Positions 16,101 through 22,982 of a DNA stretch of 64,000 nucleotides are shown here, in pieces. The notes beneath the pieces were generated by a model that saw only the letters and a program-made list of their open reading frames with translations, made no database searches and was not told the origin of the DNA. This DNA is from Chloroflexota bacterium (GTDB lineage Bacteria; Chloroflexota; UBA6077; JACCZL01). Within the stretch, counting starts at the first letter, position 1, and the number at the start of each line of letters is the position of its first letter. The stretch lies in NCBI GenBank assembly GCA_030447245.1, contig JAUJPG010000002.1, forward strand, positions 75,486 through 139,485, given 5' to 3'. Both the position numbers and the translations under genes were made by a program.

Positions 16101-17087
16101 TCAGGTCGCGGCACGCACACGGTGGCGCCAGTCTTCGAGCAAGTCGGCAAGCGTCTGCTCGAACGGAATCTCAGGTCGCCAGCCGGTCGCTGCGTGGAGC
16201 TTGGAGTAGTCGGCGTACTGGATCGGCACTTCCGAGGGCCGCATGAGCGCTGGATCGGTCTGGACCTCGAGGTGCCTGGTCGCGTGGGCGAGGAGTCCGT
16301 CGAGCACCTCACGAATCGGGCGAGGTTGGCCGCTGCCGAGATTGTAGACCTCGCCAGCCGTTCCCAGTTCCAGGAGAAGCCGGTACCCACGGACGACGTC
16401 GCGCACGTCGGTGAAGTCGCGCTCGCCATCCAGATAGCCTACTCGTATGACCGCGTCCCGAAGCCCAGCCTCGCTCTCTGCAATCTGACGCGCAAAGGCC
16501 GCCGCGACGAACGTGTCGACCTGGCCCGGCCCTGTGTGTCCGAAGGGTCGAACCCGAACGATCTGCATCCGGTGCGTCGCGAAGTACTGGTGTCCCAGCA
16601 GGTCCTGGGTGACCTTGCTGACCGCGTACGCGCTGACTGGTCGGAGTTCACAGGACTCGTCGATCGGTAACTGCTCGGGTGGCGTGGGCCCATACTCGTC
16701 GCTCGAGCCCACGACGAGGATCCGGGTGTCGACACCGCACTCGGCCACCGACTCGAGGAGGTTGACCTGACCGCCGATGTTGTTGATCAGCGTTGACAGC
16801 GGGTCTTCCAGCGAGCGCGCCACCGACGACTGGGCCGCGAGATGGTAGACGGCTTCGGGCCGCACCTCGCGGACGGCGGCGGTGACGCGAGCCCGGTCCG
16901 TGAGGTCCGCGGGCACCGTTCTGACCGCCGGGTCGAGATGTCGGTCGGAAGGCTCCGGCCGAGTCAGCCCCCACACCTGATCCTCGCCGCGTGCGAGCAG
17001 ATGAGCCGCCAGATGGCGACCCACAAACCCCGCGGCGCCGGTGATCAACACTCTCATGGCGGCGACAGGATACCGGAGCCAGGGCAT
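16101..17087 (-). CDS. NAD-dependent epimerase/dehydratase (GDP-mannose 4,6-dehydratase/reductase type)
   Basis: VLITGAAGFVGRHLAAHLLARG, YAVSKVTQDLLGHQYF, RPFGHTGPGQVDTFV. Confidence 0.88.
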   Translation of the reverse strand: MPWLRYPVAAMRVLITGAAGFVGRHLAAHLLARGEDQVWGLTRPEPSDRHLDPAVRTVPADLTDRARVTAAVREVRPEAVYHLAAQSSVARSLEDPLSTLINNIGGQVNLLESVAECGVDTRILVVGSSDEYGPTPPEQLPIDESCELRPVSAYAVSKVTQDLLGHQYFATHRMQIVRVRPFGHTGPGQVDTFVAAAFARQIAESEAGLRDAVIRVGYLDGERDFTDVRDVVRGYRLLLELGTAGEVYNLGSGQPRPIREVLDGLLAHATRHLEVQTDPALMRPSEVPIQYADYSKLHAATGWRPEIPFEQTLADLLEDWRHRVRAAT

Positions 17088-17176
17088 GCCTGGAGAGTCA
17101 CTCAGGGGTCCATATCAGCCTGGCTGGGGAATCGGGCTGGTCGCCGAGCGAGGCTGACGAGCGTCGTCTGGAGCGT

Positions 17177-18425
17177 TCAGCGGGCGGCGACCGCCTGGGC
17201 CTGAGCCATGCCGGCCGCGGAGCGGAGGGCGTCAGCCTTATCGGTGCGCTCCCAGGGGGCGTCGATGTCGTCCCGGCCGAAATGTCCGTACGCCGCGGTC
17301 GCCTTGTAAATCGGCCGTCGGAGACGGAGGTCGCGGATCAGAGCGGCCGGTCGAAGGTCGAAATGCTCCTGGATGAGAGCGGCGATCGTGTCTTCGGAGA
17401 CCCGTCCTGTTCCAAAGGTCTCGATCATGACCGAAACAGGCTCGGCGACGCCGATGGCGTAGGCCAGCTGGATCTCAAAGCGGTCCGCAAGGCCGGCCGC
17501 GACGACGTTCTTGGCAACATACCGAGCGGCATAGGCTGCCGACCGGTCAACCTTCGTGGGATCCTTGCCGGAAAAGGCGCCGCCGCCGTGGCGCGCCATC
17601 CCGCCGTAGGTGTCGACAATGATCTTGCGCCCGGTAAGCCCAGAATCTCCGAATGGGCCGCCGATGACGAAACGGCCGGTTGGATTGATCAGGACCTTCG
17701 TGTCGCCGTCGAGCAGCTCGGCCGAGACGATCGGCGTGATCACGTGCTGCCGCACATCGCCGTCAATCTGTGGTTGTTCGACTCCTTCGGCGTGCTGGGT
17801 CGAGATGACGATCGTGTCAACACGGACCGGCTTGCCGTACTGGTACTCGACGGTCACCTGGCTCTTGCCGTCCGGGCGCAAATACGGAAGCGTGCCGTCC
17901 TTGCGGACGCGGGTGAGCTGCCGGGTCAAATGATGCGCCAGGGCAATTGGTAGCGGCATCAGCTCGGGAGTTTCGTTGCACGCGAAGCCGACCATCATGC
18001 CCTGGTCGCCCGGCGCCCGTTGCGAGGGCGGCGTCCTGGTCGCCCTGCTTGGACTCGAGCCCTTGGTCTACGCCGAGAGCAATGTCCTCGGATTGGCCGG
18101 ACAGATGAACGGCAATTTCCACGCTATCAGACGAGGTGCCGAACGAACGATCGGTGTAGCCGATGTCGCGCAGCGTGTCGCGGACGAGCTTCTTGACATC
18201 CTCAATCGGGGGCAGCGGCGTAACCTCGCCAAAGACGGCTACCCAATCGACCTTCTCGTCCGACTTGACTCCCGACTCGCACGCCACGCGAGCCTGGGGG
18301 TTCTTGCTCAGCGACCAATCCAGGACGGCATCGGAAATCTGGTCGCAGATCTTGTCCGGATGGCCCTCGGTGACCGACTCAGAAGTGAACAGCAGACTGG
18401 GCGACTGCATGAAAGTGATCGACAT
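17177..18425 (-). CDS. metK: S-adenosylmethionine synthetase, interrupted by a +1 frameshift near 18009-18011
   Basis: N-terminal half in ORF 17817..18446 ([22 protein letters not shown]...), C-terminal half in ORF 17177..17998 ([21 protein letters not shown]...[21 protein letters not shown]). Removing one G from GCCGGGCGACCAG restores [18 protein letters not shown]. Confidence 0.93.
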
Positions 18426-18459
18426 GGCTCCTCCCTCATTCGCCATTCCTGATCGCCGG

Positions 18460-19731
18460 TTAGGTGCCCTGCTCCCAGGAGGCCAAGTACGTTTCCTGCT
18501 CGGTGGTCAAGGTGTCGATCGCCACGCCCATTGACGCGAGCTTCAGGCGCGCGATCTCGCGGTCGATATCCTCGGGGACGACGTAGACTTCGTTCTTGAG
18601 TTGGCTGGAATTCTTCAGCATGTACTCGGCTGCGAGTGCCTGATTGGCGAAGCTCATGTCCATGACCGCGGCTGGATGGCCTTCGGCGGCGGCCAGGTTG
18701 ATCAGCCGACCTTCGCCAAGGAGATAGATCCGGCGGCCGTCGGCCAAACGGTACTCGTCCACGAAGTCGCGGACCCGACGCTTGGACTGGGCAAGCTGCT
18801 CGACCGCGGGAATGTTGATCTCGTCGTTGAAGTGCCCCGAGTTGGCGACAATCGCTCCGTCCTTGAGGTGCTCGACATGCTCGCGATCCAGGACGTTCAG
18901 ATTGCCGGTAACGGTGATGACGATGTCGGCCACCTCGGCGGCGCGGGCCATCGGCATCACCTGGAAACCCTCCATCACGGCCTCCAGGGCACGGACTGGA
19001 TCGACCTCGGTGATGACGACGTGGGAACCCATCCCGCGCGCGCGGCTGGCAACACCCCGGCCGCACCAGCCGTAGCCGACGACCACGACGGTCTTGCCAG
19101 CCAGCAGAACGTTGGTGGCGCGAATCACGCCGTCAAGGGTGCTCTGGCCGGTGCCGTAGCGGTTGTCAAAGAAGTGTTTGGTCATCGCCTCGTTGACGGC
19201 GACGATCGGGTATTTGAGCGCGCCGGCCTTGGCCATACTCTTCAAGCGAATCACACCGGTGGTGGTCTCTTCAGTGCCTCCGAGGACGTTCGAGAGCAGC
19301 TCCGGCTTCTGGGTGTGAAGCACCGTCACCAGGTCGGCGCCGTCGTCCATCGTCATTTGCGGTCCGGTTGCGAGCGTCGCTTCGATGTGGCGGTAGTAGG
19401 TCTGCTCGTCCTCGCCCTTGATGGCGAAGGTCGGGATGCCGTGCTCGCCAACCAGGGCGGCCGCTACGTCGTCCTGAGTGGACAGCGGGTTCGAGGCGCA
19501 CAAGGTGACCTGCGCTCCGCCGTCGCGCAGGGTGATCGCCAGGTTCGCCGTCTCGCTCGTCACATGCAGGCAGCCCGCCAGCCGCACGCCCTCGAGCGGA
19601 CGCTCACGCCGGAACCGCTCCTGGATTAGCTTGAGGACGGGCATCTCGGCACCGGCCCACTCGATCTTGAGCAGACCGCGCTCGGCAAGCGCCAGGTCCT
19701 TGACATCGTGCTCCTGGTTCGCAACGGACAT
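18460..19731 (-). CDS. ahcY: Adenosylhomocysteinase
   Basis: [62 protein letters not shown]. Confidence 0.95.
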
Positions 19732-19752
19732 GCATTCTCTCCTCAGTCGTAT

Positions 19753-20682
19753 TCAGCTCACACCCGTCGTCAACGAAGCGGGGGAGCTGGTGAACTCCAG
19801 GAACTCTCGGTAGCGCGCTTCGACTTCGTCGCGGGTCACCCTCGCGAGCCGCTCGATGCCGAGCGCCTCCACGGTGAACGACGCCGCGGCGGTGCCGTGG
19901 ATCAGTGCCCGCTTGATGCCAGCAAACGAGGTATTGCCAGTCTCGGCCAGGTAACCCATGAACGCGCCGGCGAATGAATCGCCCGCACCGGTCGGATCTT
20001 TGACGTCTTCGAGCAGCAGCGCTGGCGCACCGAAGACTTCCTGGCCCGAGATCAGCACGACGCCGTGCTCGCCCTTCTTGATGATCACCCCGCGAGGGCC
20101 GTGCGCCATGATCGATCGCGCCGCGGCTCGCAGGCTGTAGCTGCCCGCGTACTGGCGGGCCTCTTCCTCGTTGATCGTCACCAGGTCGGCGCGCGCCATC
20201 GCGTCGGTCAGCGCGTCCTTCTGGGTTTGGATCCAGAGATTCATCGAGTCCAAGACTACCAGCCTCGGGGAGCGTATCTGCGCCTGGACAACCATTTGCA
20301 GCGCGGGCTGGATGTTGGCCAGGAACACGTACGGCGCCGCGCGGTACGCCTCGGGTAGCGTCGGGTTGAAGTCCGCGAAGACCCCGAGCCGCGTTTCCAG
20401 TGTGTCGCGAGTGTTCAAGTCGTAGTGGTAGCGGCCGGACCAGAAGAACGTCTCGCCAGGCGCGGTTTGCAGTCCCGCCAGGTCCACTCCCTTGCCGGCC
20501 AGGAGATCGACGTGGGCCTGCGGAAAGTCGTCTCCAACAATCGCGACGATGCCGACGTCGGTGTACAAGCTGGCCGCCAGCGCGAAGTACGCTGCCGACC
20601 CGCCAAGGACCCGCTCGGCCCGATCGAAGGGCGTTTCCAGCGTGTCTAGGCCGAGCGAGCCGACGACGACAAGGCTGGTCAC
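19753..20682 (-). CDS. PfkB family carbohydrate/nucleoside kinase
   Basis: GGSAAYFALAASLY...DPTGAGDSFAGAFMGYLAETG (PfkB signature). Confidence 0.88.
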   Translation of the reverse strand: MTSLVVVGSLGLDTLETPFDRAERVLGGSAAYFALAASLYTDVGIVAIVGDDFPQAHVDLLAGKGVDLAGLQTAPGETFFWSGRYHYDLNTRDTLETRLGVFADFNPTLPEAYRAAPYVFLANIQPALQMVVQAQIRSPRLVVLDSMNLWIQTQKDALTDAMARADLVTINEEEARQYAGSYSLRAAARSIMAHGPRGVIIKKGEHGVVLISGQEVFGAPALLLEDVKDPTGAGDSFAGAFMGYLAETGNTSFAGIKRALIHGTAAASFTVEALGIERLARVTRDEVEARYREFLEFTSSPASLTTGVS

Positions 20683-21491
20683 CCGATCATTGCTCCTTCC
20701 AGCGCCCTGGCGCAGATGCAGCTCCGCTCTCGCGGGATGCGCGGGATCACGCTGAGCAACAGGTCGCGCACGCGCGCGTTGTTGCGGTTGAACACCTCGA
20801 TCACCCCGGCCACCGATACTGGCTCGACCTCAGCCTGCCCTTCCAGACCCACGTCGTAGTCGGTGATCAAAGACACATTGACATAACAGAGTTCAAGCTC
20901 ACGCGCCAGGATCTGCTCAGGGTACTGGGTCATGTTGATCACCTCCCAGCCAGCCTGCGAGAACCAGCGGCTCTCGGCGCGGGAGGAGAAGCGCGGGCCC
21001 TCGACGACCACGACAGTGCCGCGATCGTGGACGGTGATCCCAAGCTCGCGCCCAGCGCTGGCAGCCAGCTCGCGAAGCTCAGGACAGTACGGGTCAGCGG
21101 AGGAGACGTGGACGACCGGAGGGCCATCATAGAAGGAGCTCGCACGCCCGCTTGTCCGGTCGACGAACTGGTCGCAGACGACGAAATCGCCAGGCTTGAC
21201 GTGGGGCTGCAGTGAGCCGGCCGCGCTCGGTCCGAGTATGCGCGTCGCCCCCAGGTGCGCCATCGCCCAGACGTTTGCGCGGTAGTTGATTCGATGCGGC
21301 GGGTAGCGGTGACCTCGGCCGTGCCGCGCAAGAAAGGCGACACGCACACCCTGGTATGTGCCGATCGCCACGTCGTCGCTCGGCGGACCGAACGGAGTCT
21401 GGATCGGGTGGTGCGTGACATCCGCCAGGAGCTCGTAAAATCCGGACCCTCCGAACACCCCGAGGTCGGCGAGCGCCTTGCGTTCAAGCAT
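20679..21491 (-). CDS. mtnP: S-methyl-5'-thioadenosine phosphorylase
   Basis: LGVFGGSGFYELL, FLARHGRGHRYPPHRINYRANVWAMAHLGATRILGPSAAGSL; overlaps the PfkB gene start. Confidence 0.92.
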   Translation of the reverse strand: MLERKALADLGVFGGSGFYELLADVTHHPIQTPFGPPSDDVAIGTYQGVRVAFLARHGRGHRYPPHRINYRANVWAMAHLGATRILGPSAAGSLQPHVKPGDFVVCDQFVDRTSGRASSFYDGPPVVHVSSADPYCPELRELAASAGRELGITVHDRGTVVVVEGPRFSSRAESRWFSQAGWEVINMTQYPEQILARELELCYVNVSLITDYDVGLEGQAEVEPVSVAGVIEVFNRNNARVRDLLLSVIPRIPRERSCICARALEGAMIG

Positions 21492-21659
21492 CCCTGGTCT
21501 CCGCCTACGGTTGGTGCCTGTCGCCCCAGGGGGGCGGCGACGCGAAGCTGCACGTGCCGGATTGCGGAGATCGGCTGGCGGTCTGACACACGGCGCGAGG
21601 ATTGTAGATGCGCATGATCCGGCGAGGATGTTCCACAAAAACCTTGACTCGCGGGCATC

Positions 21660-21683
21660 AAAAAAGGCTCTCCGGAGAGAACC
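21660..21683 (-). terminator. Intrinsic terminator of the SAM riboswitch leader
   Basis: Minus strand GGTTCTC-TCCG-GAGAGCC then TTTTTT, between aptamer and mtnP start. Confidence 0.85.
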
Positions 21684-21700
21684 CTGCGCAGCCGTGGGAT

Positions 21701-21855
21701 CGCTCATCATCTTTCAGGACGCGCGTGACGTCCTGTCGGAATTGGCACCTGCGTACTCGTCCGGCGCCCTCGATCCGTAGGAGTGAGGGCGCGCCGAGCA
21801 AGTGGTTGCCGGGCTTCGTCGGGCCGGTCCCTCTGCCTCTCTTGATAAGAGCGCG
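21701..21855 (-). promoter_or_regulatory. SAM-I (S-box) riboswitch aptamer upstream of mtnP-pfkB-ahcY-metK
   Basis: Minus strand CTTATCAAGAGAGGCAGAGGGACCGGCCCGACGAAGCCCGGCAACC...GATGATGAGCG matches the S-box core; CGCTC/GAGCG closes P1. Confidence 0.95.
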
Positions 21856-21909
21856 CGAATCTTCAATTGTTGACGCCGCGCTCGAGCCCGCGGCCAGCCA
21901 AGTCGCGCC

Positions 21910-21939
21910 ACTATAGCAAGTGGCGCCCTTGGCGCGCAA
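21910..21939 (-). promoter_or_regulatory. Sigma-70-type promoter for the SAM riboswitch operon
   Basis: -35 TTGCGC, 18-bp spacer, -10 TATAGT on the minus strand, ~55 nt upstream of the aptamer. Confidence 0.6.
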
Positions 21940-22080
21940 CGCGTCGACCCTGCAGCCGCGACAGCTACGGCCGCCTACCCGCGGATTGTGCACCTCCCCC
22001 AGGGTTCGCGCCATGGGCCGCGTCGCGGCGATGCGAACCACTTGGTCGTCGACAAACGAGGTTTGCCGCGACGCCGGTCG

Positions 22081-22596
22081 CTAGTACTTGATGAGCGAGG
22101 CGACCTCGTACCCATCCAGGCGACGCCGTCCTTCGAGGAATGTCAGCTCGACAAGGAAGGCGGTGCCGGCGATCACGCCATCGAGGCGCTCGACCAGCTC
22201 GATGGTCGCGCTTACAGTCCCGCCCGTCGCGAGCAGATCGTCGACGAGGAGCACCCGTTGGCCAGGCTGGACTGCGTCGACGTGCAGCTCGAGCGTGTTT
22301 GTGCCGTACTCCAGCGCGTACTCGGCACTGATCGTCTTCGCCGGCAGCTTACCCAGTTTGCGGACCGGCACGAACCCCAGTCCAAGGTTGTAGGCGATGG
22401 GTGCGCCGAAGATGAACCCGCGGGACTCCATCCCAGCGACCACGTCAGCGCCCCAGTCCCGAACCAGGTCGGTGAGCTGGTCAAGCGCCTGCTGGAACGC
22501 TGGGCCATCGCGCAGGAGTGTCGTGATGTCTTTGAAGACGATCCCAGGCTTCGGGAAGCCGGGAACGTCTCGGACGCGGCTGGCGAGGTCGATCAT
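22081..22596 (-). CDS. apt: Adenine phosphoribosyltransferase
   Basis: [58 protein letters not shown]. Confidence 0.95.
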
Positions 22597-22634
22597 CTGG
22601 TCCTGTCCCGACCTTCGCGGCTTGACATGGAGCC

Positions 22635-22982
22635 TCACCCCTGCCGTCGATCCACGGTACGCCGGTTCGCCCACGTCGTGTCGATTTCGAGGGCCGATCC
22701 GGTCACGCGCACGGGGTAGGTACCAACAGGCGTCGTCGTGGGTAACGCGACCGCCTCCCCGGTCCTGACGTTGAACCCGCCGCGGTGCCACGGACAGGTG
22801 ACCACCTCGCCGTTGATCTCGCCCTCGGCGAGCGGACCGCCGCGATGGGTACAGGTTGCATCGATCGCAAAGTAGTCGCCGTCGAGATTGACTAACAGCA
22901 CGGACTTGCCATCGACTTCGACCTGCCGCGTCTGCCCAGAGGGGACCTCCTGGATCTGGGCTACGGTGACGTAGTCAGTCAC
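22635..22982 (-). CDS. Rieske [2Fe-2S] ferredoxin-type protein
   Basis: [29 protein letters not shown] (CxH..CxxH). Confidence 0.92.

Follow-up and report, generated by a model that had tools for sequence, protein, structure and literature searches.

Control of metK by the SAM-I (S-box) riboswitch, an RNA that senses S-adenosylmethionine (SAM), is textbook knowledge. In Bacillus subtilis, the S-box regulon covers metK along with the genes for recycling 5'-methylthioadenosine (MTA) and methylthioribose, but these lie in separate transcription units with separate switches, and the nucleosidase/LuxS route takes the place of AhcY in removing S-adenosylhomocysteine (SAH). In the stretch of Chloroflexota DNA analysed here (64,000 nucleotides of contig JAUJPG010000002.1, hereafter the window), one SAM-I leader on the minus strand stands before genes for both SAM synthesis and SAH/MTA disposal, namely mtnP, a PfkB-family kinase gene, ahcY and metK. 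The locus shares with the SAM-I family (RF00162) the aptamer sequence and fold, the platform of P1 helix and terminator, the presumed OFF logic and the metK target, whereas the enlarged P3 arm and the range of genes behind a single leader set it apart. In our reading it very probably switches off transcription of a SAM-cycle operon when SAM is high.

SAM-I regulons of the Chloroflexi have been covered previously (Sun et al., 2013; PMC3766115). The phylum and the motif are the same as here, and the main text of that study names neither ahcY nor mtnP (PMC3766115). The SAM-Chlorobi motif (RF01724), which does not belong to SAM-I, precedes operons that together hold every metK and ahcY gene of the Chlorobi; preliminary in-line probing found no binding of SAM or SAH, and binding is unconfirmed (PMC2864571). 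A single leader before metK and ahcY is common to both systems, whereas the RNA is different (PMC2864571). A dedicated description of SAM-I operons with ahcY or mtnP was not found in a literature search that did not extend to the RegPrecise tables or to most papers behind subscription.

The SAM-I leader

The leader consists of the following elements.
21910-21919, minus strand: putative extended -10 promoter element, TTGCTATAGT, whose motif recurs in two close relatives
21704-21851, minus strand: SAM-I (S-box) riboswitch aptamer, RF00162, with an enlarged P3 arm
21660-21685, minus strand: intrinsic terminator with a 9-bp stem, a UCCG loop and six U, from a terminator scan and its conservation in the same two relatives

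The S-box core which the initial annotation had noticed on the minus strand is borne out by the Rfam search that it had proposed. The aptamer at 21851-21704 (-) scores 70.8 bits against RF00162, far over the gathering threshold of 44.4 (E = 1.5e-14), and the match spans the full model (1-108) untruncated. In the alignment to the RF00162 consensus the conserved core segments AAGAG, GGCAACC, GGUGCCAAUUCC and GAAAGAU are all present; in SAM-I riboswitches these segments hold the SAM contacts. The four-helix junction P1-P4 is formed in this full-length match with few non-standard pairs, mostly in P1, for which eight pairs with one bulged U can be read from the sequence. The P3 arm has 52 nt as compared with 15 in the model. 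Judged by its sequence, the aptamer is a standard SAM-I riboswitch, and it presumably binds SAM. Two Rfam matches in the window reach their gathering scores, RF00162 and one tRNA; the SAH riboswitch (RF01057) gave no covariance-model match at the gathering score in the window, and an identity as SAH riboswitch was dropped on this ground.

The terminator, also expected from the earlier reading of the sequence, has the composition AGGGTTCTC-TCCG-GAGAGCCTT followed by TTTTTT, and its hairpin starts 18 bases past the aptamer. It is the sole terminator-like site on either strand within 17000-22900. This count alone is no evidence, since shuffled versions of the region carry 3.0 such sites on average; the evidence is rather that the hairpin at 21685-21660 is nearly identical in sequence in G001 and G002, close relatives from two other genera. 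Terminators are present in all 15 operon switches examined, at +32 to +52. A scan for the sigma-70 consensus found no promoter, and so not the upstream one of the initial annotation; an extended -10 nevertheless lies where it would be expected, at 21919-21910, and the motif TGnTATA(G/C)T shares its position in the aligned leaders of the window, G001 and G002. Taken from the promoter region through the terminator, leader identity is 78% with G001 (269 nt) and 79% with G002 (251 nt), and the similarity stops just past the terminator.

The genes behind the switch

The gene identities rest on NCBIfam and Pfam profile matches with the cut-offs of the models.
22081-22596, minus strand: apt, adenine phosphoribosyltransferase, outside the riboswitch unit (TIGR01090, 221.2 bits > 185.85)
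20679-21491, minus strand: mtnP, S-methyl-5'-thioadenosine phosphorylase (TIGR01694, 291.6 bits > 274.85; NF005876, 337 > 306)
19753-20682, minus strand: PfkB-family kinase, probable adenosine/nucleoside kinase (PF00294, 81.8 bits)
18460-19731, minus strand: ahcY, S-adenosylhomocysteine hydrolase (TIGR00936, 639.9 bits > 497.6)
17177-18446, minus strand: metK, in two frames (TIGR01034)
16101-17087, minus strand: NAD-dependent epimerase/dehydratase, probably closing the operon (PF16363/PF01370), found after metK in most operons of the class

The four genes proposed at first to follow the switch were thus correctly named. The start of mtnP is placed near 21491; the start of the long open reading frame at 21710 falls inside the leader and was not taken. 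The mtnP stop overlaps the GTG start of the kinase gene by 4 nt (GTGA), and the following gaps measure 21 nt (pfkB-ahcY), 13 nt (ahcY-metK) and 89 nt (metK-epimerase). A consensus scan of 17000-22900 detected no internal promoter or terminator pattern in the operon. The overlap, the two short gaps and the recurrence in relatives support cotranscription of mtnP, pfkB, ahcY and metK as a predicted single operon, which probably extends to the conserved epimerase gene at 17087-16101. The apt gene lies directly upstream of the switch, about 230 nt before the aptamer, and keeps this position in the relatives.

The PfkB protein of the window falls under every NCBIfam cut-off. Its AlphaFold model (pLDDT 93.9) has the fold of a nucleoside kinase, as superposition on PDB 3kd6, a nucleoside kinase with AMP, gives TM scores of 0.93/0.96 at 49% identity. 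In G009 and in four loci from elsewhere in the phylum the same slot is occupied by another PfkB protein, related to the adenosine kinase of M. tuberculosis (2pkf, E 1.8e-63). Adenosine is a likely substrate because two distinct PfkB lineages share one slot beside ahcY, and by its modelled structure the window protein is probably an adenosine/nucleoside kinase. Such adenosine-kinase-like proteins in the operon slot are seen at L107:4762-5727, L240, L246, L249 and L254. Relatives of the window kinase adjoin mtnP in Deltaproteobacteria, Elusimicrobia and others; the lineage occurs in many phyla, often immediately behind mtnP (loci L025-L104). A likely role in adenosine salvage would thereby be given to a widespread lineage which is named only as carbohydrate kinase.

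Recurrence in the Chloroflexota

The comparison drew on 29 genomes from the class and on a sample of 40 riboswitch loci from other parts of the phylum. Of the 29 class genomes, 27 carry one or more SAM motifs, and by gene content a SAM-I switch stands directly before the module in 16 (G000, G001, G002, G007, G009, G015-G019, G022-G024, G026-G028), in some of which the contig or stretch ends within the module and only its first genes are visible. Among the 40 phylum loci the switch precedes the same module in 8 and stands directly before metK in 7. Most often the elements run apt, riboswitch, mtnA, (mtnP), pfkB, ahcY, metK and epimerase. Hence, switch and module form a recurrent Chloroflexota arrangement and not a one-off; the arrangement is real but largely ordinary, and less unusual than was at first suggested. 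The same switch and gene order in the 16 class genomes and 8 phylum loci, together with the spacing, speak for the single operon of the initial annotation and for its central proposal, that one switch would govern both SAM production and by-product clearance.

In both G001 and G002, mtnA heads the genes behind the switch. A search of the window's genome at E <= 0.001 gave no mtnA, about a tenth of this assembly being missing, and no relic of the gene was detected in the 170 nt from terminator to mtnP (21664-21491) or elsewhere in the window. As mtnA comes first in both relatives and has left no remnant in the window, mtnP became the first gene here through loss of mtnA from this place. G018 (L144) is likewise without a clear mtnA.

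A proposed mechanism

At high SAM, the bound ligand would stabilise P1 and the terminator at 21685-21660 would form, leaving mtnP, the nucleoside kinase gene, ahcY, metK and probably the epimerase gene untranscribed. When SAM is scarce, the 3' strand of P1 together with the linker, GAGCGAUCCC, would form a candidate antiterminator with the terminator's 5' arm, GGGUUCUCUC, and permit read-through. As background, AhcY converts SAH to homocysteine and adenosine, adenosine kinase converts adenosine to AMP, MtnP cleaves MTA to methylthioribose-1-phosphate and adenine, and the apt product converts adenine to AMP. In the scheme proposed here MetK would make SAM, AhcY would hydrolyse SAH, the PfkB kinase would phosphorylate the adenosine released and MtnP would cleave MTA, the adenine from which would be recovered through the neighbouring apt. 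When SAM is plentiful, one switch would throttle all of these genes except apt.

We lean slightly towards a wider proposal, in which a recurrent and perhaps ancestral Chloroflexota regulon uses one SAM-I switch to set SAM synthesis together with the disposal of SAH/adenosine and MTA, the PfkB lineage supplying the methyl cycle with an adenosine kinase of its own. As a riboswitch the element is textbook material; the interest would lie in a conserved and testable case of one metabolite switch over the production of a cofactor and the clearance of its by-products. If true, SAH clearance would be tied to low SAM and not to SAH, the opposite of the logic of SAH riboswitches. Since SAH inhibits methyltransferases, it is not self-evident why ahcY should be shut down at high SAM, and the logic of the regulation would for that reason merit measurement.

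Several observations weigh against the reading as an OFF switch. The antiterminator pairing in the window is weak (-10.9 kcal/mol), with 25% of shuffles equalling it (p = 0.25), and constrained folds of the competing leader states lie within a few kcal/mol of one another (-74.4 to -79.8). The mechanism in the window is for this reason argued by homology: in 6 of the 15 operon switches the P1 3' side and linker pair with the terminator 5' arm better than shuffled sequences do (p <= 0.05), and several relatives have long, near-perfect GAUGAGAG/CUCUCAUC alternative pairings in their leaders, which suggests antitermination in the window leader as well. A switch at the module was not shown for 13 of the 29 class genomes, and nine module loci without a switch gave no SAM motif up to E = 1, degenerate ones included; SAM control of the module is thus not obligatory. 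Lastly, metK is broken in the assembly. At three loci without the switch (L212, L219, L223), apt, mtnA and mtnP follow in close succession with an apt-mtnA spacing of roughly 30-115 nt, an arrangement that a deletion of the leader, joining the two units, would produce.

The broken metK and alternative explanations

The metK gene, first described as one gene, is split into two frames by a single extra G in GCCGGGCGACC (18011-18009).
18010-18446, minus strand: 5' part of metK, N-terminal domain, frame 1 (PF00438, 107.4 bits; TIGR01034 positions 1-121)
17177-18010, minus strand: 3' part of metK, central and C-terminal domains, shifted frame (TIGR01034 positions 118-376, 405.2 bits)

The 3' part alone exceeds the TIGR01034 cut-off (405.2 > 309.4). 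The GAGDQG motif reads GCC GGG CGA CC, and a coding-signal scan places the switch of frame at about 18010; the same scan also flags an IS1380-family transposase gene (24605-23261) in two frames, with a break at about 24250. The extra G is most likely a base-calling or assembly indel, this being the simplest account, and a functional metK would then stand behind a probable one-base sequencing error. A truly inactive metK, or one read by a programmed +1 frameshift at GGG CGA, is improbable. It would agree with the fact that the search of the genome yielded a single metK, which carries the extra G, and the intact rpoB of the same assembly shows that errors are not ubiquitous. However, every other metK compared (>30 Chloroflexota loci and one archaeal) reads through this site without a shift, a short G run is a typical place for indel errors, and other genes of the 131-contig assembly are also frame-broken, namely the transposase gene and two PF01053 genes in several frames each (C73:447497-448692 and C87:5125-6233).

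With metK taken as functional, it may still be asked whether the switch rules the whole operon. Control of the proximal genes alone, with ahcY and metK expressed mainly from internal promoters, is unlikely. Such promoters would suit the housekeeping function of MetK and AhcY and the lack of a switch at the module in several class members; against them, there is scant space in a 4-nt overlap and in gaps of 21 and 13 nt, the scan revealed no internal pattern, the gene order is maintained across the phylum, and seven sampled loci have a SAM-I switch immediately before metK itself. The ligand could also be questioned, as a SAM-I variant that responds to spermidine has been described (PMC10853860); MTA is a by-product of spermidine synthesis, so that a ligand-switched aptamer would match the MTA gene mtnP. 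This is highly improbable, given the high RF00162 score, the conserved core and downstream genes that belong to the SAM cycle. The published variants comprise 13 examples from Gram-positive genera and metagenomes, have polyamine biosynthesis genes downstream and depart from SAM-I in the SAM pocket (PMC10853860). A spermidine riboswitch was accordingly rejected for the window, where the genes downstream are mtnP, pfkB, ahcY and metK.

Other SAM-I switches

Nearly all other switches of the class precede a threonine-synthase-like gene, and this combination is seen at many class and phylum loci. For example, the stretch L003:4315-7652 (G000:C36:104814-108151) carries a second SAM-I riboswitch (56.6 bits) before a threonine-synthase-like gene of the pyridoxal phosphate (PLP) type, which is followed by NIL-domain, ThiS-like and ThiF-like genes. 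This cluster may serve a protein-thiocarboxylate route to homocysteine and not threonine synthesis. Genes of the trans-sulfuration family (PF01053) are also present in the genome of the window, two of them broken as described above. The NIL/ThiS/ThiF-like genes are seen in G001 too (L120).

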